This document shows, piece by piece, positions 18,300 to 31,175 of a stretch of 43,820 bases of DNA. Source of the stretch: Aurantimonas aggregata (GTDB lineage: Bacteria > Pseudomonadota > Alphaproteobacteria > Rhizobiales > Rhizobiaceae); contig NZ_JAAAMJ010000024.1 of assembly GCF_010500835.1 (NCBI RefSeq), positions 1 to 43,820 on the forward strand, given 5' to 3'. The position numbers and the translations under genes were made by a program. The notes beneath the pieces are model-generated. The model saw only the letters and a list, made by a program, of their open reading frames with translations, was not told the origin of the DNA and did no database searches. The stretch's first letter is position 1. Each line of letters begins with the position of its first letter.

Positions 18300-19442
18300 T
18301 CAGCCCGGCAATGGCACCGCGTAGCGCTTCAGGGCGGCGAGATCGGGCGAGACGCCAAGGCCGACCCCCTGCGGCACCAGCATGTCTCCCTCTATCACTG
18401 GCGGAAAGCCGAGGATCAGCTCTTCCCGCAGAGGATTGGGGTTCGCATCGACCTCGAGAAGCCCGCCACCGCCGACGGCGGCGAGCAGGTGCAGCGATCC
18501 GATCAGCCCGATGCCTCCGCCCAGCCAATGCGGGCAATAGACCACGGCGTGGTCTAGGGCATTCCTTGCGATCGGCAGGCAGCCCGAGATGCCGCCCCAC
18601 TTGCCGATGTCCGGCTGCAGATATCGGACGGCGCCACTTTGCGTCATCGCCGCGAATGATGTCGCACCTCTGAGGTTCTCCCCGTTCGCGAGCGGGACGC
18701 CGCAGTCGGCGGCGATCGATCGCCATACGTTGATGGGCGTATCGGCTCGGACCGGCTCCTCCAGCCATCTCGGCTGAAGCGGTTCAAACAGCTGTGCCAT
18801 GTGTATGGCGGTCTCGGCATCCCAAGCCTGGTTCGCGTCGACCATAAGATCGGTGTCTCCGCCGAAGGTCTCGCGCATCGCCTCGAGATTGCGGCAGTCG
18901 CGTTCCTCGCCGAATCCGACTTTGATTCTGAACCGACGATGGCCGGCCTCAGCCTTCTCCGCAGCGAGTCGCTCGGGCGCATCGGCATTGAGTCCACTCG
19001 CATAGGCTTTGACTTGCGTGACATCCGGCCCGGCGAGGAACCGATGCAATGGCTTGTCGTCCCGTCGCGCGAGCATGTCCCAGATGGCGATGTCGATGCC
19101 GGCGATCGCCTGCGCCAGCGGACCCGGTTCTCCGCTCTGGATGGCAAGAACCGCCGTGGCGTCACTGAGGAAAGCGAATGCAGCGTTGGGATCGTCAAAG
19201 GGGCGCCGCGTCACGAGTGGAGCCAGCACTGAGGTGATCAGTCGCGCCCGATGCTCGGCCCCGACGGCAGGAAAATTGCACCAGACCTCGCCCCAACCCT
19301 CCGCTCCGTCCGTTCCGATGACGCGAACGAACACGGCAGGCCTGTCCCGCATCACGCCGAAGGACGTCACGACCGGAGTCTCGATCGGCACCCGAAAGAC
19401 CAGCGGCACAACATGCGCGATGGAAAAGGCGTGGGAGGACAT
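18300..19442 (-). CDS. Enolase-superfamily (mandelate racemase subgroup) sugar-acid dehydratase
   Basis: The 380-residue protein has the capping domain and barrel of the MR subgroup. Metal ligands are D202 (LMVDANQAW), E228 (WLEEPV) and E255 (NGENLRG). The Asp-His dyad is D278 (LQPDIGKWGG) and H305 (CPHWLGGG). The usual KxK motif reads R172-I-K174, keeping the second lysine. Such enzymes remove water from aldonic acids to give 2-keto-3-deoxy acids, or epimerise acids; the substrate is unknown. It lies 70 bases downstream of the LacI gene and is probably co-transcribed with it, which ties it to the divergent transport and catabolic operon. Confidence 0.85.
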   Translation of the reverse strand: MSSHAFSIAHVVPLVFRVPIETPVVTSFGVMRDRPAVFVRVIGTDGAEGWGEVWCNFPAVGAEHRARLITSVLAPLVTRRPFDDPNAAFAFLSDATAVLAIQSGEPGPLAQAIAGIDIAIWDMLARRDDKPLHRFLAGPDVTQVKAYASGLNADAPERLAAEKAEAGHRRFRIKVGFGEERDCRNLEAMRETFGGDTDLMVDANQAWDAETAIHMAQLFEPLQPRWLEEPVRADTPINVWRSIAADCGVPLANGENLRGATSFAAMTQSGAVRYLQPDIGKWGGISGCLPIARNALDHAVVYCPHWLGGGIGLIGSLHLLAAVGGGGLLEVDANPNPLREELILGFPPVIEGDMLVPQGVGLGVSPDLAALKRYAVPLPG

Positions 19443-19511: not shown

Positions 19512-20567
19512 TCATGCCCACTTCGGCGGTGACGACGATTCGCGGACGACCAGGGAGAAATCGATCTCGCGATGCATCATCGCCGGATGCCCAGCGAGCG
19601 TCTGCACCAGATATTCGCCGGCCCTCGTCCAGATCTCGTCGGTAGGCATATGGATGGTCGTCAATGCCGGCTGCAGATGCCGGCTCCATTCGAGATCGTC
19701 GAACCCGACCACCGAGAGGTCCTGCGGCACGGCAAGACCCAGCTTTTGGGCTTCCAGCATGACACCATAGGCGATGACGTCGTTGCCGCAGACGATGGCC
19801 GTCGGGCGCTCGGAGCGCTGCAGCAGCGTCCGGGCCGCCTGCCGGGCTTCGTCGAGCTTGTAGTTCACCTGGATCTGCCATTCGGGCGGAGGCGTCGCGC
19901 CGGCTTCCGCCAGAACCGATATGATGCCGCGCAGACGCGCCTGGGCACGGTCGTTGTTCCGCTGCAGCGCCGCGACGATGCCGATCGATCGGTGTCCGAG
20001 ATCGATGAGATGGCGCACGATGCATCGTCCGGCGGCTTCATTGTCGACGCCGATGCTCGGATAGGGCTTGTCCGGATCGTAGACGCCGACATTGACGAAA
20101 TCGATCTGCTGGGACTGCAGCAAGTCACGCAACGCCTCGTGATGGGCGTCGCCGCGCAGCAGCAGCCCGTCAATCCCCCGGCTGACCAGATTGCGCGCCT
20201 GTGCAAGCTCCACATCGAGATCGTACTCGTTAGTCGCCAGGAGGAGGAGATAGTTCTGACTTGACAGATAGCGCTGGAGGGACTGGAGCCCTTGCGCGAA
20301 CATCGCATTGTCGATGGTCGGGATGATCGCCCCGATCGTGCGGGTTCGCCTGGAGGACAGGGCCCGGGCTGAGGCATCGGGAATGTACCCGACCTCGTCG
20401 ACGATCGCACGGATACGCGTGCCGAGCTCGGCGCTTACGGATTCGGGGCGATTGAGAAACCGGGACACCGTCGCCGTCGACACGCCGGCCTGCTTGGCGA
20501 CGGCTCGAATGCCGATGCCGCGTGCGCGACGGGTGGTCGTGTCGATATCTGAAGTAACCGATTTCAT
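19512..20567 (-). CDS. LacI-family transcriptional regulator
   Basis: I chose ATG 20567 (351 residues) because the helix-turn-helix then begins at about residue 18 (IRAVAKQAGVSTATVSRFLN); the ATG at 20612 would add 15 residues of no family character. The effector domain has TIGAIIPTIDNAMFAQGLQ, GIDGLLLRGDAHH, SIGVDNEAAGRCIVRHLIDL and LSVVGFDDLEWSRHLQPALT. It most likely represses the divergent binding-protein operon through the palindrome at 20709-20722 and is relieved by the transported sugar or a metabolite. The downstream gene on the same strand encodes the dehydratase. Confidence 0.92.
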   Translation of the reverse strand: MKSVTSDIDTTTRRARGIGIRAVAKQAGVSTATVSRFLNRPESVSAELGTRIRAIVDEVGYIPDASARALSSRRTRTIGAIIPTIDNAMFAQGLQSLQRYLSSQNYLLLLATNEYDLDVELAQARNLVSRGIDGLLLRGDAHHEALRDLLQSQQIDFVNVGVYDPDKPYPSIGVDNEAAGRCIVRHLIDLGHRSIGIVAALQRNNDRAQARLRGIISVLAEAGATPPPEWQIQVNYKLDEARQAARTLLQRSERPTAIVCGNDVIAYGVMLEAQKLGLAVPQDLSVVGFDDLEWSRHLQPALTTIHMPTDEIWTRAGEYLVQTLAGHPAMMHREIDFSLVVRESSSPPKWA

Positions 20568-20682
20568 AAGGCGTGCGTAATCCCCAATGTTGATGTCGAA
20601 TAGCCGAACCATCACAGCTGGCGCAACCTAGCTCTATGACGCAGTGCAGCGACGATTTTGCCTCGGTTTATCCTCGTCGAGA

Positions 20683-20722
20683 TTGACGAACGGTTTCCGT
20701 AAGGCGTATGTAACCGGTTACA
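20683..20722 (+). promoter_or_regulatory. Promoter with overlapping LacI-type operator
   Basis: A -35-like TTGACG (20683-20688) is followed after 18 bases by TATGTA (20707-20712). The perfect 14-base palindrome TGTAACCGGTTACA (20709-20722) overlaps the -10 box and has the central CG typical of LacI-family operators. It lies about 60 bases before the binding-protein gene. Repressor binding here would block RNA polymerase directly. Confidence 0.75.
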
Positions 20723-20783: not shown

Positions 20784-22088
20784 ATGGCATCACGTGAACG
20801 CAACGCATTGGGCTGCATTCTCGCCGCGCTGACGCTTTCGACCACGGTCGGAGCGGCGTCCGCGCAGACCTTCGACTGGAAGGCTCACGAAGGCGAAACG
20901 ATCACCTTCCTGGCCAACAACAATCCGGTCGCCACGGCGCTCCTCAAGCATCAGGACGAGTTCGAGGAACTGACCGGCATCGACCTGCGGGTCGACAGCT
21001 ATCAGGAACAGCAGATGCGCCAGCGCCTGCTCACGGTCCTCAACGCGCGATCGGACGAAGTCGACGTCTTCATGACGCTCCCGTCGCGTGAAGGCATGCA
21101 ATATTCCGCGGCCGGTTGGTATGCCGACCTGACGCCATTCACGACGGACAGCGTCTCCCCCGACTATGATTTCGACGGATTTGGAACGGCCCTGGTCGAT
21201 GCGGCGAAGTTCGACGGCGTCCTGACCGGCATCCCGCTCAATATCGAGGGGCCGGTCCTCTACTACCGGACGGACATCTTCGAGACCTGTAACGTCCAGC
21301 GGCCCGAGAGCATTGCCGACATCGAGGCGGCCGCGAAGACCATCAAGAAATGCGATTCCTCGATCACGCCTTTCGCCTCGCGCGGCCTGAAGCCGGCTGT
21401 CCCCTACACCTTCTCCAATTTCCTGCACAATATGGGCGGGCAATACATGAGGGACGGCAAGTCCAACCTCTGCTCGGCAGAGGGCAAGGCGGCGCTGGAG
21501 ACCTATGCGAACCTTCTGAAGGACTACGGCCCTCCAGGCGCGGTCAACTACTCCTTCTACCAGCTGACGTCGCTCTATCGTGCCGGTCGGTCGGCGATGA
21601 GCTTCCAGTCGTCGAACGAGTTTCCCTCGGTGATGGAGGGTGGCGAACGCCTCGAGGACACGGCCATCATGCCCCTGCCGAAGGGCGACGGCGGATCGGT
21701 CCCGACCACCATAGGCTGGGCCATTACGATCTCGGCCTTCTCGGGCAATCAGGATGCAGCCTGGTATTTCGTGCAATGGGCGACGAGCCCTGAAATGCAG
21801 GCGAAGCTCGCCCTCGAAGGGATTGCGCCGCCGCGCCAGTCGGTTTCGCAGGACCCGGCCTACAAGGCCTGGCTCGAAGATCAGCCGCTTCGCAAGCAGT
21901 GGCAAGAGACGCTCGATGAACTCGCACAGACCGGCAGCTCGGAAGTCGGCTTCCCGATCATCCAGAACCCCGAATCGCGCGAATATATCGGGCAGGCGGT
22001 CAACCAGATCCTGCTTGGCGAGGCCGATGTGGACACCGCTTGCGCGGCTGCCGACGAGGCGCTCGATGCCTTGATCGCGCGGGAATGA
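20784..22088 (+). CDS. ABC transporter sugar-binding protein (family 1)
   Basis: The ATG at 20784 follows GGGAGGAAACC and gives 434 residues, with a signal peptide cleaved near ASA-QTFDW. The rest is a family 1 extracellular solute-binding protein: ITFLANNNPVATALLKHQDE, FEELTGIDLRVDSYQEQQM, VDVFMTLPSREGMQYSAAGW, GIPLNIEGPVLYYRTDIFE, and PTTIGWAITISAF near the C-terminus. It captures the substrate in the periplasm for the two permeases and ATPase encoded downstream. It is the first gene of the catabolic operon, and strong hairpins follow it, a common way to keep binding protein mRNA abundant. The ligand cannot be read from sequence. Confidence 0.92.
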   Translation: MASRERNALGCILAALTLSTTVGAASAQTFDWKAHEGETITFLANNNPVATALLKHQDEFEELTGIDLRVDSYQEQQMRQRLLTVLNARSDEVDVFMTLPSREGMQYSAAGWYADLTPFTTDSVSPDYDFDGFGTALVDAAKFDGVLTGIPLNIEGPVLYYRTDIFETCNVQRPESIADIEAAAKTIKKCDSSITPFASRGLKPAVPYTFSNFLHNMGGQYMRDGKSNLCSAEGKAALETYANLLKDYGPPGAVNYSFYQLTSLYRAGRSAMSFQSSNEFPSVMEGGERLEDTAIMPLPKGDGGSVPTTIGWAITISAFSGNQDAAWYFVQWATSPEMQAKLALEGIAPPRQSVSQDPAYKAWLEDQPLRKQWQETLDELAQTGSSEVGFPIIQNPESREYIGQAVNQILLGEADVDTACAAADEALDALIARE

Positions 22089-22205: not shown

Positions 22206-22931
22206 ATGAACAAGTTCGCCCTTGCACCCGGATTCCGGGCCGCCGTGATCGGTGGTGCCGGCGGCATCGGTCTTGCGATCCTGCGCCAGCTCGATGACCT
22301 CGGTGCGGAACTCCACGCAACCGGGATCGGCACGGCTGAACTCGCCGACTGCGACGCACCGCAGGGCACCCGGCTCTCCGTCCTCGACATCACTGACCAG
22401 AGCGCTGTCGACGCCTATGCGAACGACGTCGGTCCGGTCGACCTCCTGGTAAATTGCGCAGGCATCCTGAAGCGGGACGAGGAATACACGATCGACATCT
22501 TCCGCGAGGTAATCGAGGTCAATCTCATCGGCACCATGGCGACCTGTCTTGCCTTCCGCCAGGGGCTTTCGACCCGCAAGGGCTCCATCGTCAACATCGC
22601 GTCGATGAACGCCTTCGCCGGCCTGCCCCGTCTTCCGGGATACTGCGCCTCGAAGGGCGGCGTCGTCATGCTGACGCGGTCGCTGGCGCTCGCCTGGGCG
22701 GCCGAAGGCATCCGCGTCAACGCCGTCGCGCCCGGCTTCATCGAGACGAACATCAACGCCGAGGGCCGCAAGGACGCGGCCCACTACCAGAAGATCGCCG
22801 AACGGACCGCTTTCAAGCGTTGGGGCCAACCTGACGAGATCGCCGGCACGGTCGCCTACCTCGCAATGCCCGCCGCGTCATACGTGACCGGCGCGGTCTA
22901 CGCCGTCGATGGCGGCTTTCTGGCGGGATAA
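22206..22931 (+). CDS. Short-chain dehydrogenase/reductase
   Basis: This 241-residue classical SDR has the dinucleotide motif GGAGGIG (16-22), NCAG (83-86), structural N106, the catalytic S133-Y146-K150 (IASMN, YCASK) and PGFIETN after the active site. It should oxidise a sugar, polyol or sugar-acid hydroxyl with NAD(P) or carry out the reverse reaction. It lies within an ABC transporter operon, between the binding protein and the first permease, so its substrate is probably the transported compound or its first intermediate. Family is certain; substrate is unknown. Confidence 0.9.
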   Translation: MNKFALAPGFRAAVIGGAGGIGLAILRQLDDLGAELHATGIGTAELADCDAPQGTRLSVLDITDQSAVDAYANDVGPVDLLVNCAGILKRDEEYTIDIFREVIEVNLIGTMATCLAFRQGLSTRKGSIVNIASMNAFAGLPRLPGYCASKGGVVMLTRSLALAWAAEGIRVNAVAPGFIETNINAEGRKDAAHYQKIAERTAFKRWGQPDEIAGTVAYLAMPAASYVTGAVYAVDGGFLAG

Positions 22932-22938
22932 GACAACG

Positions 22939-23799
22939 ATGCAAACTGCCAAGGGCCAACTTGCAGCGCTCGGTGCGCCGGCCGTCCTCTTCACCGTAGC
23001 GATGATCGCCTTCCCAGTCGTCTACACCCTGTATCTCAGCATGGAGGCCTTCAGCGCCACCGGCACGACGCGGTTCGTCGGCGCCGAAAACTACACGCGC
23101 ATGATGAGCGACGAGAATTTCTGGGATGGCCTCGTCATCACCTTCTACCTCTACGCCCTGTCGCTGACGCTGCAGCTGATCTTCGGCACCGGTCTGGCGC
23201 TGCTGCTCTTTCGTGCCAAACGGCTGCCGGGTGTCGTGAGATCGCTCTTCATCTCGCCCTTCATGATGCCGCCGGTCGTTGCCGGAATGATGTGGCTCGT
23301 CATTCTGGACCCCTCGCTCGGAGCTGCGAACTACATCCTCACCTCCTTCGGGTTGCCGCCGTCCGAATGGCTCGCGTCGCCGCAATGGGTCGTGCCGACG
23401 CTGGCGCTGATCGATACCTGGCAGTGGAGCCCCTATGTCGCGCTGATCGTGCTGGGTGGCCTGCAATCGCTGCCGCCCTCCGTCTACGAAGCTGCCGAAA
23501 TCGACGGCGCCTCGGGCTGGAAGCGCTTCTGGCGCATCACCCTGCCGCTGCTGCTTCCGACGCTGGTCACGGCCATGGTGCTGCGCTCGGTCGATCTCCT
23601 GCGGTTCTTCGACCTGATCTACATCACCACTCAGGGCGGTCCGGCCAATGCCTCGCTCACCCTCAACATTTACGGCTTCCGCACCGGTTTCGAGTTCTTC
23701 CAGCTTGGCTATGCCAGCGCACTGATGGTGACCCTGTCCGTCATCGTGCTCGGCGTCACGCTCGTCCTCAACCGTCTGCGCCACGCCGTTGCCTGGTAA
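22939..23799 (+). CDS. ABC sugar transporter permease (MalF type)
   Basis: From ATG 22939 (7 bases after the SDR stop) the 286-residue protein has six predicted transmembrane helices and the EAA loop YEAAEIDGASGWKRFWRITL that contacts the ATPase. The conserved segment LRFFDLIYITTQGGPANAS near the C-terminus is typical of MalF/UgpA permeases. It pairs with the permease encoded 5 bases downstream. Confidence 0.93.
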   Translation: MQTAKGQLAALGAPAVLFTVAMIAFPVVYTLYLSMEAFSATGTTRFVGAENYTRMMSDENFWDGLVITFYLYALSLTLQLIFGTGLALLLFRAKRLPGVVRSLFISPFMMPPVVAGMMWLVILDPSLGAANYILTSFGLPPSEWLASPQWVVPTLALIDTWQWSPYVALIVLGGLQSLPPSVYEAAEIDGASGWKRFWRITLPLLLPTLVTAMVLRSVDLLRFFDLIYITTQGGPANASLTLNIYGFRTGFEFFQLGYASALMVTLSVIVLGVTLVLNRLRHAVAW

Positions 23800-23803
23800 C
23801 GCC

Positions 23804-24637
23804 ATGTCATCGCTCGCCAACCGCCCTTCCGACCGGTTCGTCACCATCATCAACGTCGTCCTGCTGGTCGCAGCCGGCATCGCCGTCCTCGCACCGGTCG
23901 CATGGATGGTGCTGTCGTCCTTCAAGCAGAGCTTCGAGGTCACGGCCTACCCGCCGACGATTGTCTTCGAACCGACCCTGGACAACTACCGCTCGCTCTC
24001 CGAGACGACGCCCTTCATTCAGTTCGGGTTGAACTCGCTGATCGTGACGATCGGATCCACCGCGCTCGGCTTGCTTCTGGGTGCGCCGGCCGCTTTCGCG
24101 GTTTCCTGGACGCGGATCACCTGGCCGGCGATCGTCACGCTGCTGGCGCGCATGGCACCGGGCACGTTGTTCCTGCTGCCCTGGTACGTGATGTTCCGGC
24201 AGGTCGACATGATCGGGACCTATAGCGTTCTGATCCTGACCCATGCCGTGATCACCATGCCGATCGTCATCTGGGTCCTGCTTCCGTTTTTCGATAACAT
24301 TCCAAGAAGCGTCTTGGAAGCAGCCCAAGTCGACGGATGCACGCCGGTCCGCATCTTCTGGCGCATCGCATTGCCGCTGGTCGTCCCCGGACTTGCGGTC
24401 TCGTCGATTCTCGCCTTCGTGTTCTCCTGGAATTACTTCCTCTTCGCGCTCGTCCTGTCGAATTCCGAAACCAAGACGCTGATCGCCGCTTCCTTCAATT
24501 TCATCGGCGAGGGCTCGACCAACTGGGGCGGGCTGATGGCGGCCGCGACCCTGATCGCCCTGCCCCCGCTCGCCCTCGCCCTCGTCGTCCAGCGCTGGCT
24601 GATTTCGGGCCTGACGCTCGGCGCTGTGAAAGGCTGA
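23804..24637 (+). CDS. ABC sugar transporter permease (MalG type)
   Basis: The start at 23804 gives 277 residues; in-frame sequence upstream overlaps the previous gene. Six helices are predicted, with the N-terminal VAWMVLSSFKQSFEVTAYPP typical of MalG/UgpE proteins and the EAA loop LEAAQVDGCTPVRIFWRIAL. It forms the channel with the preceding permease and is energised by the ATPase encoded at 25645. Confidence 0.93.
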   Translation: MSSLANRPSDRFVTIINVVLLVAAGIAVLAPVAWMVLSSFKQSFEVTAYPPTIVFEPTLDNYRSLSETTPFIQFGLNSLIVTIGSTALGLLLGAPAAFAVSWTRITWPAIVTLLARMAPGTLFLLPWYVMFRQVDMIGTYSVLILTHAVITMPIVIWVLLPFFDNIPRSVLEAAQVDGCTPVRIFWRIALPLVVPGLAVSSILAFVFSWNYFLFALVLSNSETKTLIAASFNFIGEGSTNWGGLMAAATLIALPPLALALVVQRWLISGLTLGAVKG

Positions 24638-24640
24638 ACC

Positions 24641-25645
24641 ATGATGTCGACCAAGGATCAAATGCGAGCCGCCGATTTCCAGGGCAGCGACGTGATCACC
24701 ATCACATCCACGACAAAGCCCGTGCCCGGCCCCGGTGAAGTGCTGCTGCGCGTTTTGCGCACGGCCCTTTGCGGCTCGGACTTCAAGCTCTGGCACAAGG
24801 GCGCGGAGTTCATCGCCGGACACGAGATCTTCGGACGTGTCGAACAGCCGGGCCATGCCATGGATGGCAGGCGCTGTGCCGTCTACATCCCGTTGCATTG
24901 CGGTCGCTGCGAAGCCTGCCGAGCCGGCAACACCCAGATGTGCATCGAGGTCTCGTCGCTGATCGGCTGGAACCGCGACGGTGGCTATTGCGAATTCGTC
25001 TGCGTCCCGGACAACTGCCTTCTCCCGGTTCCGGACGACATCGACGACGATCTCGGCCCTCTCCTCCTCGATACGATCGGAACCTCGGCCCACGCCGTGC
25101 GTGAGGCGGAGCGCTTCCTGCCGCGCGAGGCCGACCGCAGCGTCCTCGTCACCGGCGCAGGCCCTGTCGGGCTCGGCGTCGTCCTCGCATTGAAGGCGCT
25201 CGGCTACGAGGATGTCTTCGTTTCGGATCCGAACGAGGCACGGCTTGCCATAGCGCAGGATTTCGGCGCGAAGCGCTATGCCGTGGGCAGCAAGGACAAG
25301 CGCTTTTCCCTGATCGTCGAATGCTCGGGCGCCCATCCTGCCCGCAATCTAGCGATCGAACTCGTCCTGCCGAAGGGAGTGATGGTCCTCGTCGGCGAGA
25401 ATGCCGCGCCCTGGACGATCACCGAAGACAAGATCTTCAGACGAAAGGATTTCGCGATGCTGCGGACCTTCTATTTCCCGAAGTCCGACTTCGAACCCAA
25501 TATCGAGCTTCTGCGGGCGAACAAGGAGCGATACCGGCGCCTCGTCGACGACGCCTTCGGGCTCGACGCATTGCCGGAGAAATTTGCCCGCTTTGCCGCA
25601 GGCGAGACGATCAAGCCCGTCCTGGCTTTCGCGGAGGCACGCTGA
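24641..25645 (+). CDS. Zinc-dependent medium-chain alcohol/polyol dehydrogenase
   Basis: The 334-residue MDR enzyme starts 3 bases after the permease stop. Catalytic zinc ligands are C44 (ALCGSDFK) and H61-E62 (AGHEIFG). The structural zinc site is C87, C90, C93 and C101 (CGRCEACRAGNTQMC). The nucleotide-binding motif is GAGPVG at 172-177. It belongs to the sorbitol/threonine dehydrogenase-like group and probably interconverts a hydroxyl and a ketone on the transported sugar or polyol. Its stop overlaps the ATPase start by one base. Together with the SDR it gives the operon two NAD(P)-linked sugar dehydrogenases. Confidence 0.88.
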   Translation: MMSTKDQMRAADFQGSDVITITSTTKPVPGPGEVLLRVLRTALCGSDFKLWHKGAEFIAGHEIFGRVEQPGHAMDGRRCAVYIPLHCGRCEACRAGNTQMCIEVSSLIGWNRDGGYCEFVCVPDNCLLPVPDDIDDDLGPLLLDTIGTSAHAVREAERFLPREADRSVLVTGAGPVGLGVVLALKALGYEDVFVSDPNEARLAIAQDFGAKRYAVGSKDKRFSLIVECSGAHPARNLAIELVLPKGVMVLVGENAAPWTITEDKIFRRKDFAMLRTFYFPKSDFEPNIELLRANKERYRRLVDDAFGLDALPEKFARFAAGETIKPVLAFAEAR

Positions 25646-26715
25646 TGGCCTTGATCCGCATGCAGCAACTCGTCAAGAAATATGGCGACCTGACCGTCAT
25701 CCCCGGTCTCGACCTGGACATCGCCGACCATGAATTCGTCGTGCTCGTGGGCCCATCCGGATGCGGCAAGTCCACGCTCCTGCGCGTGCTTGCCGGCCTG
25801 GAACCCATCGACGGCGGCGAGCTTTATATCGGCGACCGCAAGGTCAATGATGTTCCCGCCGCACAGCGCGACATCGCGATGGTCTTCCAGGACTACGCCC
25901 TCTATCCGCACATGACCGTCCGCCAGAACATGGCTTTCGCGCTCGAAATGCGCGGCATGGGACGCAGCGAAATCGCAACGCGTGTCGAGCATGCCGCAAG
26001 GCTTCTCGACATCGGCCCCTATCTGGATCGCCGGCCGAAAGCGCTTTCGGGAGGACAGCGCCAGCGTGTCGCCATGGGACGGGCAATCGTCCGCGATCCT
26101 CAGGTGTTCCTGTTCGACGAACCCCTGTCCAATCTCGACGCCAAGCTGCGTGCGCAGGTCCGCACCGAGATCAAGGCGCTCTCCCAGACGCTCCGCACGA
26201 CCATGGTGTTCGTCACCCACGACCAGATCGAGGCCATGACCATGGCCGACAGGATCGTCATCATGAAGTCCGGCGTGATCCAGCAGGTCGGAACACCGGA
26301 GGAAGTCTACGAGACGCCCGCCAACCAGTTCGTCGCGAGCTTCATCGGTTCGCCCTCGATGAACTTCATGCCGGTCACCCGCGACGGCGAGCAGCTGGTG
26401 CTTGCCGATGGAAAGCATCTTGCCGACACGGCCGATCTAGCCCGGCGGATGCCCGCCAATGGCAGTGCGGTCCTAGGCGTGAGGCCGGAGCATTTCCTCG
26501 TTGTTCCGGAGGCGAGTGCCGCGATCTCGGCACGGATCGATCTCGTCGAGCCGCTCGGCTCGGACACGCTTATTCACCTCAAGATCGCTGGAACCGACGC
26601 CATAGCCCGCGTCGAACCCGATCTTCGGCCGCGCCCCGGTGATGTCGTCTCGCTGGCTCCGGTTCCCGGCAAGACGCATCTCTTCGAGGCAAGTTCAGGT
26701 GCGGTCATCCTCTGA
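25645..26715 (+). CDS. ABC sugar transporter ATPase (MalK/UgpC type)
   Basis: The 356-residue protein has Walker A GPSGCGKS (36-43), Q-loop VFQDYALYPHM, signature LSGGQ (134-138), Walker B FLFDEP (155-160) and switch H in FVTHDQ. A C-terminal OB-type regulatory domain (GVRPEH) is typical of the MalK group. It energises import through the two permeases. Its ATG overlaps the dehydrogenase stop. A 120-base gap without a gene separates it from the aldehyde dehydrogenase. Confidence 0.95.
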   Translation: MALIRMQQLVKKYGDLTVIPGLDLDIADHEFVVLVGPSGCGKSTLLRVLAGLEPIDGGELYIGDRKVNDVPAAQRDIAMVFQDYALYPHMTVRQNMAFALEMRGMGRSEIATRVEHAARLLDIGPYLDRRPKALSGGQRQRVAMGRAIVRDPQVFLFDEPLSNLDAKLRAQVRTEIKALSQTLRTTMVFVTHDQIEAMTMADRIVIMKSGVIQQVGTPEEVYETPANQFVASFIGSPSMNFMPVTRDGEQLVLADGKHLADTADLARRMPANGSAVLGVRPEHFLVVPEASAAISARIDLVEPLGSDTLIHLKIAGTDAIARVEPDLRPRPGDVVSLAPVPGKTHLFEASSGAVIL

Positions 26716-26835: not shown

Positions 26836-28296
26836 ATGTCCATCGACGGTCTGAAAGACCCTTCCCTATTCACCCAGTGTTGCCTCGTCGCAGACCGCTG
26901 GATTGCCGTGGACGGCGACAATGGCATCGCGGTCATCAATCCGGCGGACGGCGCACTGGTCGGTACGGTCCCCAGCATCGGCATCAAAACGCTGCGCGAG
27001 GCGATCGACGCGTCCGAGGCCGCGCAGAAGCTCTGGGCGCGCAGGAGTGCCAAAGAGCGTGCCGGCCTGATCCGACGCTGGTACGAGCTGATCGTCGAAA
27101 ATGCCGACGATCTCGCGCGCATCCTTACCGCGGAACAGGGCAAGCCCCTGGCCGAGGCGAAAGGCGAGATCGTCGCCAATGCAGCCTATCTCGAATGGTT
27201 CGCCGAAGAGGCCAAGCGCGTCTATGGCGACATCGTCCCGCCGCCCGGCAACGATCGCCGCGTCCTCGTCATGAAGCAGCCGGTGGGCGTCTGTGCCGCA
27301 ATCACGCCGTGGAACTTTCCCAATGGCATGATCACCCGCAAGGCAGGTCCGGCCCTTGCAGCCGGATGCACGATCATCGTCAAGCCGGCTTCGCAGACAC
27401 CCCTTTCGGCGCTGTCGCTCGGCGTTCTGGCCGAGCGCGCCGGTATTCCCGCCGGCGTCTTCCAGGTCGTCACCGGCAAGGCCGCGATGATCGGAGAGGA
27501 GCTCTGCGCCAACACCAAGATCGCCAAGATCAGCTTCACCGGCTCGACCGAGGTCGGCCGCTGGCTGATGCGCAAGGGCGCCGACACGATCAAGCGCCTG
27601 TCCCTGGAACTCGGCGGCAACGCACCCTTCATCGTTTTCGAGGATGCCAACATCGATGCTGCCGTCTCGGGCGCGATGGTCGCGAAGTTTCGGAATTCCG
27701 GGCAGACCTGCGTCTGCGCGAACCGCATCTATGTCCATGAGACGATTGCTGCGGAATTCACCCGCAAGCTCGCAGCCGAGGTGGATCGCCTGACCGTCGG
27801 GCGCGGCGATGCGGACGGCGTCATGCAAGGCCCGCTGATCGACGACGCTGCCGTCGCCAAGATGGAAGAGCATCTGAAGGATGCACTCGACAACGGCGCC
27901 GAACTCGTGACCGGCGGCAAGCGTCACGCGCTGGGCGGCACCTTCTTCGAACCAACGGTGATCACGAAGGTGACCCAGGCGATGAAGCTCGCCCATGAGG
28001 AGACCTTTGCGCCGCTGGCGCCGGTCATCGCCTTTTCGAGCGAAGCCGACGTGATCGAGATGGCCAACGACACCGAATTCGGGCTGGCTGCTTATTTCTA
28101 TACGAAGGATCTCGCCCGCACCTTCCGGGTCGCCGAGGCGCTCGAAAGCGGGATCGTCGGCGTCAATTCCGGGCTGATCGCCAATGAGATGGCGCCCTTC
28201 GGCGGCTTCAAGCAGTCCGGTCTCGGACGCGAGGGCTCCAAATACGGGATCGAGGAATATCTCGAAACCAAATATGTCTGTGTCGCCGGCCTATGA
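26836..28296 (+). CDS. GabD-like semialdehyde dehydrogenase
   Basis: This 486-residue NAD(P)-dependent aldehyde dehydrogenase follows a perfect AAGGAGGT site. Catalytic residues are C292 (SGQTCVCANR), E258 (LSLELGGNAP) and N160 (TPWNFPNG). R168 (MITRKAG) and R297 (CANRIYV) match the arginines that hold the distal carboxylate in succinate semialdehyde dehydrogenase GabD, so the aldehyde probably carries an anionic group at its far end. GabD-like enzymes also oxidise sulfolactaldehyde in sulfoglycolysis. Here it is coupled by ATGA overlap to a kinase, with an aldolase following, so it probably oxidises the aldehyde the aldolase releases. That role is inference. Confidence 0.9.
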   Translation: MSIDGLKDPSLFTQCCLVADRWIAVDGDNGIAVINPADGALVGTVPSIGIKTLREAIDASEAAQKLWARRSAKERAGLIRRWYELIVENADDLARILTAEQGKPLAEAKGEIVANAAYLEWFAEEAKRVYGDIVPPPGNDRRVLVMKQPVGVCAAITPWNFPNGMITRKAGPALAAGCTIIVKPASQTPLSALSLGVLAERAGIPAGVFQVVTGKAAMIGEELCANTKIAKISFTGSTEVGRWLMRKGADTIKRLSLELGGNAPFIVFEDANIDAAVSGAMVAKFRNSGQTCVCANRIYVHETIAAEFTRKLAAEVDRLTVGRGDADGVMQGPLIDDAAVAKMEEHLKDALDNGAELVTGGKRHALGGTFFEPTVITKVTQAMKLAHEETFAPLAPVIAFSSEADVIEMANDTEFGLAAYFYTKDLARTFRVAEALESGIVGVNSGLIANEMAPFGGFKQSGLGREGSKYGIEEYLETKYVCVAGL

Positions 28297-29228
28297 GCGG
28301 CAAACACCCGACATGGCCGCGCAAAGAGGCGCGCGTCGCCTGCCTCGGCCTCTCGGCGCTCGACTATATCTGGGTCGTCGACGAACTGCCGGGCCATGCG
28401 AGCGCGAAGGTCCGTGCGGACGACTTTGCGGTGAAGGGCGGTGGCATGGCTGCGACGGCGGCCGTCACAGTCGCCCGTCTCGGCGGCCACGCGTCCTTCG
28501 TCGGCCGCGCGGGCGCCGACCGCGAGGGTGAACTGATGCGCGCCGAACTCTCGGCGGAAGGCGTCGACATCGAGCATTTTCGGCTCTTCGAGGGCGCGCG
28601 CTCGTCGATCTCGGGCATCTTCGTCGACAGGAACGGCGAGCGACAGATCGCCAATTTCCGCGGCGCGGACTTGCCGGCGGGCACGGATTGGCTGCCCTTC
28701 GGGGTATTCGGCAGTTTCGGTGCCCTCCTGTGCGATCCGCGTTGGCCGGAAGGCGCGAGCGCAGCCTTCGGCGCCTGCCGAAAGCTTGGCGTTCCCACGA
28801 TCCTCGACGGCGATGTCGCGGAGGCACAGATCTTCGACGCGCTGCTGCCGCTCGCCGATCATGCGATTTTTTCAAAGCCCGCGCTTGCCGGCTATGCCGG
28901 CAGCGCCGACGGAGCAGCCTTGCAAGCGATAGCCGAACGCCACGGCTGCACCGTGTGCGCGGTGACTCTGGGCGAAGCCGGCGTCCTCTATTTGGAAAAC
29001 GGCGAGTTCCACAGCGTTGACGCCTTCCGCGTCGATGCAATCGACACGACGGGTGCCGGCGACGTCTTCCACGGCGCCTATGCCTATGCCGTCGCGCGCC
29101 GTGCGCCGACGAGCGAGGCCATGACATTCGCGGCCGCCGTCGCAGCGCTCAAATGCACGCGCCCGGACGGGCGCAGCGGAATCCCAACCCTCGAAGCAAG
29201 CCTATCATTCTGGAGACACCAATCATGA
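28293..29228 (+). CDS. PfkB-family sugar kinase, sulfofructose kinase (YihV)-like
   Basis: The 311-residue ribokinase-fold protein ends with the PfkB signature DTTGAGDVFHGAYAYA (251 onward, catalytic D257). It aligns by eye along its length with recalled E. coli YihV: VKGGGMAATAAVTVARLGG, LDGDVAEAQIF and AALKCTRPDGRSGIP. Positions recalled as sulfonate-binding in YihV (K27, N109, R138) are K39 (SAKVRA), N121 (QIANF) and R150 (CDPRWPEG) here. It should phosphorylate a ketose or keto-acid for cleavage by the aldolase that follows. It overlaps both neighbours by ATGA. Sulfosugar specificity is inference; another C6-anionic sugar is possible. Confidence 0.9.
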   Translation: MSGKHPTWPRKEARVACLGLSALDYIWVVDELPGHASAKVRADDFAVKGGGMAATAAVTVARLGGHASFVGRAGADREGELMRAELSAEGVDIEHFRLFEGARSSISGIFVDRNGERQIANFRGADLPAGTDWLPFGVFGSFGALLCDPRWPEGASAAFGACRKLGVPTILDGDVAEAQIFDALLPLADHAIFSKPALAGYAGSADGAALQAIAERHGCTVCAVTLGEAGVLYLENGEFHSVDAFRVDAIDTTGAGDVFHGAYAYAVARRAPTSEAMTFAAAVAALKCTRPDGRSGIPTLEASLSFWRHQS

Positions 29229-30262
29229 CGAGCATCGGAAAACTGCGCGGACTGACCCGCCTGGCGGATGACGACGGCCATTTTACGATGGTCGCGCTCG
29301 ATCAGCGTCCGCCGCTGATTTCGGCGATCGCAAAAGCCAAGAATATCCGGCCCGAAAACGTGACTTTCAAGGACATGCTGGCCGCCAAGCGCATGCTGGT
29401 CCAGGCCCTCGCCGGCGACGCAAGCTCGATGCTCCTCGATCCGAACTTTGCGGTGCCGGCAGCCCTTGACATCCTTCCTGCCCGAACCGGCCTCATCGTC
29501 ACGCTCGAGGAACATCGTTTCGTCGAGACGCTCGGGGGGCGGCTGTCGCGTTCGATCGACAACTGGTCGGTCGGCAAGATCCGTCGCCTCGGCGGCGACG
29601 CCGTCAAGGTTCTCGCCTGGTACCGCCCGGATGCCTCGCCGGAGGTGATCGAGCATCAGAGAGACTACGTCCGCACGGTCGGCGCCGAATGCCGCCGGCA
29701 CGACATTCCTTACGTTCTCGAACTTCTGGTCTATCCATTCCCCGACAGCGCCGGCCACACGACGGATTACGTCGAATCCCCAGATAAGCGTGCCGAACTC
29801 GTTATCGACAGCGTGCGGGAATTCGCAAAGCCGGAATACGGCGTGGATCTCTTCAAGCTCGAGACGCCGCTGCCCGGCTCTTCCTTGCCAGAATGGTCGG
29901 ATGCGGCGGATTCGAAAGCGGCGGCAGCCGAATTTGACGCGGTGGGATCGATCTGCCGCGACGCAGGCATTCCCTGGGTGCTTCTCTCGGGCGGGGTGAC
30001 GCCGGATCAGTTCGGCCGTGTCCTCAACTACGCCTATGCCGCCGGTGCGCAGGGGTTCCTGGCGGGCCGCACGATCTGGCTCGACGCGATCCAGTCCGCT
30101 TTCCCGGACGAGGCAAAGGTTCTTTCGGAGCTGAAGGCCGACGGCAAGCAGCGCTTCGAACGCCTGACGCAGATCACCCGAAGCCACGCGAAACCCTGGC
30201 TTTTTCCGGCCTCGGAAGTCGCCTATACACGCGAGGGCGCCTTCGCGGCTGCCTACGCCTGA
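29225..30262 (+). CDS. Class I LacD/YihT-type ketose-phosphate aldolase
   Basis: The 345-residue product begins MTSIGKLRGL, with the ATG overlapping the kinase stop. The family pattern is visible: VALDQRPP (D26), DAVKVLAWYRPD (K128), Schiff-base lysine K211 in DLFKLETPLPG, and LLSGGV with AQGFLAGRTIW at the phosphate-binding end. LacD cleaves tagatose 1,6-bisphosphate; YihT cleaves 6-deoxy-6-sulfofructose 1-phosphate to DHAP and sulfolactaldehyde. The enzyme should thus give DHAP plus an aldehyde, which the GabD-like enzyme could oxidise. It is the last gene of the operon, and a stem-loop follows. Confidence 0.88.
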   Translation: MTSIGKLRGLTRLADDDGHFTMVALDQRPPLISAIAKAKNIRPENVTFKDMLAAKRMLVQALAGDASSMLLDPNFAVPAALDILPARTGLIVTLEEHRFVETLGGRLSRSIDNWSVGKIRRLGGDAVKVLAWYRPDASPEVIEHQRDYVRTVGAECRRHDIPYVLELLVYPFPDSAGHTTDYVESPDKRAELVIDSVREFAKPEYGVDLFKLETPLPGSSLPEWSDAADSKAAAAEFDAVGSICRDAGIPWVLLSGGVTPDQFGRVLNYAYAAGAQGFLAGRTIWLDAIQSAFPDEAKVLSELKADGKQRFERLTQITRSHAKPWLFPASEVAYTREGAFAAAYA

Positions 30263-30319: not shown

Positions 30320-30732
30320 GAGCGCGAGTCGTGCGAGATGAAAAATTAAGCAGCCAACAGGTAGTGCTTCGGCCGTAGTCCAAAGTCGGCGCGAGCGACG
30401 CGGGCCCGCTGGCAGGCCCACTAAAACACTGCCCGTCCCCAGTCCGCGCTCGGCTGGAGCACCCCGTCCGCCTTCGCCGCCACCTTCCTTCCATCCCCGA
30501 CGGGCGCCGACGCTGCGCCTTGGCAAGGGCTCCGCGCCGACGCCCGTCGCTCAACCCGCAAACGAACTCAGCAAAACCGCCGGGAGCGAACTCACGACTG
30601 GATAAAAATTAGGGGCAACGTCAATCGTCCTCGAAACCCATTGCCCAAACTCCCGCGAAACTTGCGGATTCGTACCCGGAAACGAGCCGCCGAACTTGTG
30701 GCTTTTGCTACCTAATGCCGGGGTTATCGGCG
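30320..30732. other. Intergenic stretch without a recognisable gene
   Basis: About 410 bases separate the catabolic operon from the integrase fragment. Open frames here are short and have no recognisable content. A GC-rich segment is at 30470-30550 and an AT-richer segment at 30575-30730. This may be the left boundary of the island, but I see no tRNA gene or clear direct repeat to define an attachment site. Confidence 0.4.
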
Positions 30733-31175
30733 TCCAAAAATTGCACGCCGGATCACAAAGGGACCACCTCATTCCGCTCTCGCGTCAGGCTGCCGAGACG
30801 ATCGGCGTCCTCAGGACCATAACCGGCCGAGGCCCCCTCGCCTTCCCGAACAGCCGTCACGCACATCGCCCTATGAGCGAGAACGCAATCGGCTATCTCC
30901 TCAACTGCGCCGGATACCACCACCGACACGTGCCGCACGGTTGGCGATCGACTTTCTCCACGGGGATGAACGAGCGCTTCCCCGCAGATCACCGCATCAT
31001 CGATCTGATGCTGGCCCACACGCCGAAAGACAAGGTTGAGGCGGCCTACAATAGAGCGGCGCACCTCAGGCGACGCCGCGAACTTTATCAGGCGTGGGCA
31101 GATCTGCTGATGCAGGAGCAGAGGCCGACGGCAGATCTACTGATCCTGCCGCGGCGAACAAGCCGCGCCGCCTAA
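30733..31175 (+). pseudogene. P4-type tyrosine recombinase (integrase), C-terminal fragment
   Basis: The recognisable part begins at HLIPLSRQAAETIGVLRTI and continues FPNSRHAHRPMSENAIGYLL, then HGWRSTFSTGMNE with the H-x-x-R motif, and MLAHTPKDKVEAAYNRAAHL. These are the second half of the catalytic domain of P4-type integrases. The N-terminal DNA-binding domain and the first catalytic Arg are missing. A Tyr in AAYNRAAHLRRRRELYQAWA matches the nucleophile position. The fragment marks the edge of an integrative element that extends to the AlpA gene at 41909-42145. Confidence 0.85.

Follow-up and report, generated by a model that had tools for sequence, protein, structure and literature searches.

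A conserved operon of Aurantimonas aggregata that probably encodes a sulfoglycolysis of the Embden-Meyerhof-Parnas type entered through two dehydrogenases

Much biological organosulfur resides in sulfosugars; the routes for their catabolism that we found described deal with sulfoquinovose (SQ) and, recently, sulfofucose. In the sulfoglycolytic Embden-Meyerhof-Parnas (sulfo-EMP) pathway of E. coli (YihQ/S/V/T/U), a YihV-type sulfofructose (SF) kinase and a class I aldolase lead to dihydroxyacetone phosphate (DHAP) and sulfolactaldehyde (SLA). The sulfoglycolytic Entner-Doudoroff (sulfo-ED) pathway of R. leguminosarum and P. putida instead cleaves 2-keto-3,6-dideoxy-6-sulfogluconate and has a GabD/SlaB-type SLA dehydrogenase. 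Here we analyzed a 43,820-nt stretch of DNA from Aurantimonas aggregata (NZ_JAAAMJ010000024.1, GCF_010500835.1), hereafter the window, to whose positions all coordinates refer unless a locus is named. One single operon was found opposite a divergent LacI gene, in the order binding protein, short-chain dehydrogenase/reductase (SDR), two permeases, zinc-dependent alcohol dehydrogenase (Zn-ADH), ATPase, GabD, PfkB kinase and LacD-like aldolase. We propose that it probably encodes an EMP-type sulfoglycolysis which gives DHAP and SLA and is entered via the two dehydrogenases.

As in E. coli, a YihV-type SF kinase and a class I aldolase are predicted to produce DHAP and SLA. Unlike the E. coli set, the operon has a LacD-type rather than a YihT-type aldolase, a predicted GabD-type oxidation of SLA instead of its reduction, import by an ATP-binding cassette (ABC) transporter, and the added Zn-ADH and SDR. 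GabD is shared with sulfo-ED, whose Shinella example (locus L003) also carries a TauE-type exporter, whereas the operon is proposed to cleave a ketose phosphate by an aldol reaction. In the proposed route, the ABC transporter would import a sulfosugar or a derivative, and the Zn-ADH and SDR would jointly make a 6-deoxy-6-sulfo-ketohexose (sulfofructose or an epimer, e.g., sulfotagatose), either by oxidizing one carbon and reducing another, thereby taking the role of an aldose-ketose isomerase, or by epimerizing a ketose. The kinase would phosphorylate the sulfoketose at C1, the aldolase would split the phosphate into two three-carbon pieces, DHAP and SLA, and GabD would oxidize SLA to sulfolactate, which would then be exported or cleaved by SlcC, ComC and SuyAB encoded elsewhere in the host genome. 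We infer every one of these reactions from homologies, conserved residues, conservation of the operon, a conserved palindrome and gene linkage. On this footing, it is rather likely that the kinase and aldolase act on a sulfoketose.

Genome contigs were scanned with an aldolase alignment; the best 80 of 118 relatives were kept, and plasmid loci and the window were added. An operon locus was defined by the ADH, kinase and aldolase occurring together, which gave 86 loci (the window and 85 fetched loci). The kinase gene (28293..29228, plus strand), whose ATG overlaps the GabD stop codon, encodes a proposed sulfoketohexose 1-kinase. Its closest solved sequence relative was YihV (PDB 7ag6; 44% identity, 234 bits, E 2e-68, residues 14-306), followed by 2rbc at 161 bits. 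A preliminary description of this DNA had reported that the kinase follows YihV and that K39, N121 and R150 correspond to YihV K27, N109 and R138, and the alignment to 7ag6 agreed on all three. We take these residues to be the sulfonate-binding triad. The triad was present in 86/86 aligned operon kinases and, outside the operon, in 10 of 19 aligned rows (YihV, L032 and eight sister loci), being absent from nine; kinases L009 and L112 entered this alignment as partial sequences. Only two YihV positions, F57 and N109, recurred in ≥97% of the operon kinases while differing in all four comparators (L010-L013). The AlphaFold2 model of the kinase had a pLDDT of 94.4, and a Foldseek search of the PDB with this model returned as its top hit YihV with sulfofructose phosphate (SFP)/SF (TM 0.90, rmsd 1.5, 44% identity). 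The kinase tree had 58 rows, of which 35 came from the 86 operon loci; in it the operon kinases formed one clade (SH-aLRT 99) apart from the YihV clade and the sister kinases, with the order among the three clades not settled. The protein thus appears to be a YihV-type SF kinase with the complete triad, though in a clade separate from YihV. The sulfo-EMP2 combination of a SqiK (PF00365) kinase with a class II SqiA aldolase was not seen in the operon, where the kinase is PF00294 and the aldolase PF01791.

Related kinases were also noticed in other settings. On plasmid pZZM402 of Zymomonas mobilis ZM4 (L120, 63-959), a kinase on the YihV branch neighbors an iron-containing alcohol dehydrogenase, and the 9.9 kb fetched has no further annotated sulfo-EMP gene. 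A YihV-like kinase (K-A-R) and a LacD-like aldolase lie behind a tripartite tricarboxylate (TTT) transporter in L111 and L116, where neither an isomerase nor an ADH was matched in the vicinity.

The aldolase gene (29225..30262, plus strand), proposed to encode a sulfoketose-1-phosphate aldolase, had been described as class I LacD/YihT-type with Schiff-base K211. The lysine of LacD and YihT, presumably the catalytic Schiff-base residue, did align at K211, but the scores (112-134 bits for LacD entries vs 61-65 bits for YihT) made the protein LacD-like, not YihT-like. It is therefore class I by its aligned lysine but not a YihT-family SFP aldolase. In a tree with 28 of the 86 operon loci, the operon and sister aldolases formed neighboring groups and YihT was distant; no use was made of the position of the LacD row, whose branch of 7.8 is unreliable. 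The best PDB relative was 8TNF (572 bits), which matches the aldolase encoded by the operon copy of Paracoccus strain Merri (L023) at 345/345 aligned residues. A literature search on 8TNF gave no on-topic paper by title, and the operon context offers a proposed function for this aldolase, so far labeled in the PDB only as "DUF2090 domain-containing protein".

The GabD gene (26836..28296, plus strand) encodes a proposed SLA dehydrogenase; like the kinase and aldolase genes, it lies exactly where it was first placed. The protein was 70% identical to RlGabD (8c54) and 60% identical to E. coli GabD. RlGabD is a characterized SLA dehydrogenase (PMC10599462). Residues R168, R286 and C292 align with RlGabD R171, R289 and C295. 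The preliminary description had named R168 and R297 as the anion-binding arginines; R168 was right, but the second is R286. Both arginines also occur in E. coli GabD, so they cannot single out SLA dehydrogenases, and we rejected the pair as evidence. Among the SlaB/GabD features (clustering with RlGabD, Arg171/Arg289 and Cys295), all of which the predicted protein has, only the clustering counts. In a tree of 29 rows (L031, L008 and L089 left out), RlGabD fell together with 22 GabDs of operon loci or sulfo-ED-like clusters in a clade (support 100/99) that leaves out E. coli GabD. The identity to RlGabD and this clade support the earlier suggestion that GabD would be of the SLA-oxidizing type.

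The presence of the SDR (22206..22931, plus strand; PF13561) and the Zn-ADH (24641..25645, plus strand; PF08240/PF00107, threonine/polyol dehydrogenase type) within the operon was confirmed, and the YihS and YihQ genes, in whose place the preliminary description put them, were not found. The host genome gave no match to the YihS family PF07221 in a search that was positive in 2/14 control genomes, and none to YihQ or to an SftI-type isomerase in searches run without a positive control. Zn-ADH residues C44/H61/E62 and C87/C90/C93/C101, presumably zinc ligands, were nearly invariant among 84 aligned sequences. An SDR gene accompanied the ADH in the flanks of 81/86 operon loci. Flanks were about 10 kb or less, and because genes were counted by similarity label anywhere in the fetched flank, some of these SDRs may not be orthologues.

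An order-level search of 297 genomes found the aldolase in 26; five of these belong to the operon type, and the other 21 represent a second type with lower scores, hereafter the sister type. Fourteen of the 21 sister clusters were fetched, with incomplete gene calls in L108 and L112. A YihV-like kinase was recognized in 12/14, and 13/14 had an aldolase sharing 46-51% identity with that of the window. They resemble hybrid sulfo-EMP clusters with an SftI/SqvD-type isomerase and share the YihV-type kinase and LacD-type aldolase with the operon, but they have an isomerase-family gene, often together with a Gfo/Idh protein, where the operon has Zn-ADH and SDR. The SftI-like gene was found in 12/14 sister loci, including the query's own locus L107, vs 0/86 operon loci in their fetched flanks. 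Two of these SftI-like genes were scanned against NCBIfam, and each matched a single model, that of sulfoquinovose isomerase SftI, without reaching its curated cut-off (E 3.5e-79 and 1.6e-73). SuyA, SuyB, SlcC and ComC adjoin L106 and L107, with GabD also beside L106, while SuyB occurs in L108 and SlcC in L113. Mainly because of the 12/14 vs 0/86 distribution, we place the ADH/SDR pair in the position of the isomerase, an assignment with close to an even chance of being correct.

In L106 and L107, the kinase, aldolase, SftI-like isomerase, a Gfo/Idh protein (possibly GH188-like) and SlcC/ComC/SuyAB make up a candidate for full SQ mineralization. A plasmid of Cereibacter sphaeroides 2.4.1 (L012, 1328-10942) carries an ABC importer, Zn-ADH, GabD, tartrate dehydrogenase, YihT-type aldolase and YihV-like kinase (K-L-R) and, by annotation, no isomerase; it may represent a parallel route with entry through dehydrogenases. 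In the Aurantimonas genome itself, the sulfolactate locus (L105, contig C34:176000-194000; 13132-14208 and 11687-12901) includes a tartrate dehydrogenase that shares 54% identity with its Cereibacter counterpart and another gene of the MR/MLE enolase superfamily.

Genes of sulfonate metabolism were found beside some copies of the operon. Further counts in the flanks of the 86 loci were MR/MLE 48, GabD 25, TauE 15, ComC 5, SlcC 5 and SuyB 2, the SuyB of L031 being truncated at the locus edge and left outside the count. TauE, SuyB, ComC or SlcC occurred in the flanks of 21/86 loci, all among the 46 non-Bradyrhizobium loci (21/46 vs 0/40 in Bradyrhizobium). Compared with the TauE of the Shinella sulfo-ED-like cluster L003, identities were 52-60% for the Shinella type and 34-39% for the Variovorax type. 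The Variovorax copies (L004, L082 and L084) have nearby a dehydratase 64-65% identical to that of L003 and also lie near HpcH-type aldolases. In Nitratireductor (L019), the adjacent sulfolactate locus consists of ComC, SlcC, a TTT transporter, SuyB, SuyA and a YeiH-type exporter. The host genome has such a locus on contig C34, with SuyA (80%), SuyB (88%), SlcC, ComC, a YeiH-type exporter, a GntR-type regulator and a TTT transporter, the best matches coming mostly from L019. SuyB occurred in 5/7 operon genomes vs 10/54 others of the family (p 0.008, Fisher) and, at the order level with the sister type included, in 17/26 vs 51/271 (p 1e-6, Fisher). The preliminary description had concluded on an ABC-fed route ending in sulfolactate plus DHAP. 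Its kinase and aldolase logic was strengthened by the triad in all 86 operon kinases and by the sister clusters with an SQ-isomerase family gene, two of them beside SuyAB, but the host genome carries SuyAB, SlcC and ComC, so sulfolactate may not be where the route ends. Separately, a sulfatase gene (52-100% identical to that of L060) lies near the operon in L002, L006, L060 and L080, accompanied in the first three by a formylglycine-generating-enzyme cluster gene, a hint that the natural substrate may be sulfate-esterified.

A number of observations weigh against a sulfosugar pathway and leave room for other substrates. The order-level SuyB signal comes from the sister type (16/21), with only 1/5 among operon-type genomes; the Fisher tests ignore phylogeny, and several of the 86 loci are near-copies. 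GabD was found beside only 25/86 loci, and two of these GabDs are remote (42% identical in L031 and 55% in L080, the latter grouping with E. coli GabD). N109 is no strict marker, since isomerase-bearing sister loci L112 and L119 have Gly there. All 40 Bradyrhizobium loci are without TauE, SuyB, ComC and SlcC in their flanks, although such absences are weak because of the flank length. In four operon-type genomes, probably Bradyrhizobium, SuyB was found in 0/4 and the GabDs were of only 56-58% identity. The Bradyrhizobium copies may be doing something else. They would also fit a substrate that is a carboxylate analogue, i.e., a uronate- or aldonate-derived ketose whose carboxylate binds at the K-N-R site and whose cleavage gives DHAP and tartronate semialdehyde or the like, oxidized by GabD. 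GabD-type enzymes accept carboxylated aldehydes, and the Zn-ADH and SDR pair resembles the L-idonate/5-ketogluconate pair. The best argument for a carboxylated substrate is an MR/MLE enzyme of the acid-sugar dehydratase/epimerase type, a superfamily that acts on carboxylates. Its gene, not mentioned in the preliminary description, lies 69 bp behind the LacI gene in the same direction (18300..19442, minus strand; PF13378/PF02746), and the acid-sugar-type gene seen in 48/86 flanks is without explanation in the sulfosugar model. Its closest solved structure is 3ddm (402 bits), annotated as a "putative" enzyme, and the first lysine of its KxK motif is Arg here (R-I-K; 1/46), with K-x-K in 45/46 relatives. 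The carboxylate alternative is nevertheless unlikely in view of the SQ-isomerase family gene in the sister clusters (two of them beside SuyAB), the grouping of GabD with RlGabD, and the SuyB/ComC/SlcC or TauE genes beside the operon in 21/86 loci.

An ordinary sulfo-EMP pathway on free SQ, with an unrecognized isomerase encoded elsewhere and the dehydrogenases serving another purpose, would agree with all remaining steps if SLA oxidation is of the SlaB type, and hybrid sulfo-EMP clusters are known (PMC9594981 and PMC12890257). However, the host genome has no PF07221 or SftI-like match, and the ADH and SDR genes are conserved parts of the operon. Furthermore, Paracoccus strain Merri bears on this question. 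By gene order, its gene cluster 2 contains the operon (L023, apparently with kinase MDP0926268 and aldolase MDP0926269), there without the GabD of the window operon. The sulfofucose paper (mBio 2025, PMC12421959) reports that strain Merri, which has a PF07221 gene elsewhere in its genome, does not grow on SQ. Because of this, free SQ is an unlikely substrate; we consider this alternative improbable, and the sugar of the operon is probably not free SQ. The proven pathway of cluster 2 in the same paper is the adjacent sulfofucolytic ED pathway (SfcH/D/F/E). Within window 15001-36000 this set was not found, with distant matches only to SfcF (28%) and SfcH (34%) and no match to SfcD or SfcE. The paper already names the Merri kinase and aldolase as a possible sulfotagatose branch but leaves the operon unassigned, and it is the only source in our literature search with the term sulfotagatose. 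As a point against the sulfosugar reading, neither protein was significantly raised on sulfofucose, so sulfofucose is not the main inducer of the two in Merri, and the sections consulted give no enzyme activity for either. A "threonine dehydrogenase", which by gene order would be the Zn-ADH of the operon, was raised on sulfofucose and did not oxidize SLA (PMC12421959). A sulfosugar epimer, glycoside or polyol remains as a substrate candidate. A tagatose- or polyol-utilization operon without any sulfonate would be in line with the polyol-type enzymes among the ADH and SDR relatives and with the sole curated aldolase model passed, NF009498 tagatose 1,6-diphosphate aldolase (362 vs 184 bits). Apart from this broader subfamily, the tagatose-6-phosphate pathway pair was missing, since the kinase reached 50 bits of the 420-bit cut-off of the NCBIfam tagatose kinase model and the aldolase 134 of 432 bits for lacD; a tagatose assignment resting on the database name alone was rejected on these grounds. 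With no second kinase for a bisphosphate seen in the operon, and with the sulfonate linkage and the YihV triad, this last alternative is very unlikely.

The LacI-family repressor (19512..20615, minus strand; Pfam LacI/Peripla_BP_3) is divergent from the ABC transporter sugar-binding protein (SBP; 20784..22088, plus strand; PF13416/PF01547), whose remote solved relatives are 5iai and 4rya, the latter annotated as sorbitol-binding. Two ABC sugar permeases (22939..23799 and 23804..24637, both plus strand) were assigned by synteny with annotated permeases in L001, L002, L006 and L008, and a UgpC-type ABC ATPase (25645..26715, plus strand) by synteny with ugpC-annotated genes. The perfect palindrome TGTAACCGGTTACA between lacI and the SBP gene (20709..20722, no strand assigned) is proposed as the LacI operator from its conservation across loci. 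Of the other fetched loci, 28 carry an exact copy, which in 27 cases falls within the lacI-SBP gap; among the 78 further gaps inspected, many from Bradyrhizobium instead hold a shorter palindrome, TGTAACGTTACA. The site at 20709 is the only one in the host genome at ≤1 mismatch, and a larger LacI regulon there was rejected for this reason. Among nine other genomes scanned, G298 and G328 have extra sites; that of G298, with one mismatch, lies between a binding-protein gene and lacI, with an MR/MLE gene behind that lacI. Lone one-mismatch sites mean little, because G313, one of three operon-less genomes, also has one. On the 3' side of the operon, an open reading frame (30696-31175) resembles by eye the C-terminal part of a tyrosine recombinase; the end of the operon may mark the junction with a mobile element.

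The earlier view that the pathway would be new or the sugar different is supported by this analysis. No paper assigning the operon was found in the literature search, which most subscription papers lay outside. Tentatively, and with somewhat less than even confidence, we suggest an "oxidoreductive sulfo-EMP" in which an NAD-dependent Zn-ADH/SDR pair replaces the isomerase as a third entry into sulfoglycolysis. Its substrate would be a sulfosugar or sulfosugar glycoside for which no catabolism has been described. Such a route would be common across Alpha- and Betaproteobacteria, many Bradyrhizobium among them, and, where SuyAB is present, would be coupled to full sulfolactate mineralization. 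The conservation of an operon with SF-kinase and SLA-dehydrogenase signatures in soil, rhizobial and marine genera points to an unrecognized substrate pool, and dehydrogenases where known pathways have an isomerase suggest an uncharacterized route of the sulfur cycle common to many soil and marine bacteria.

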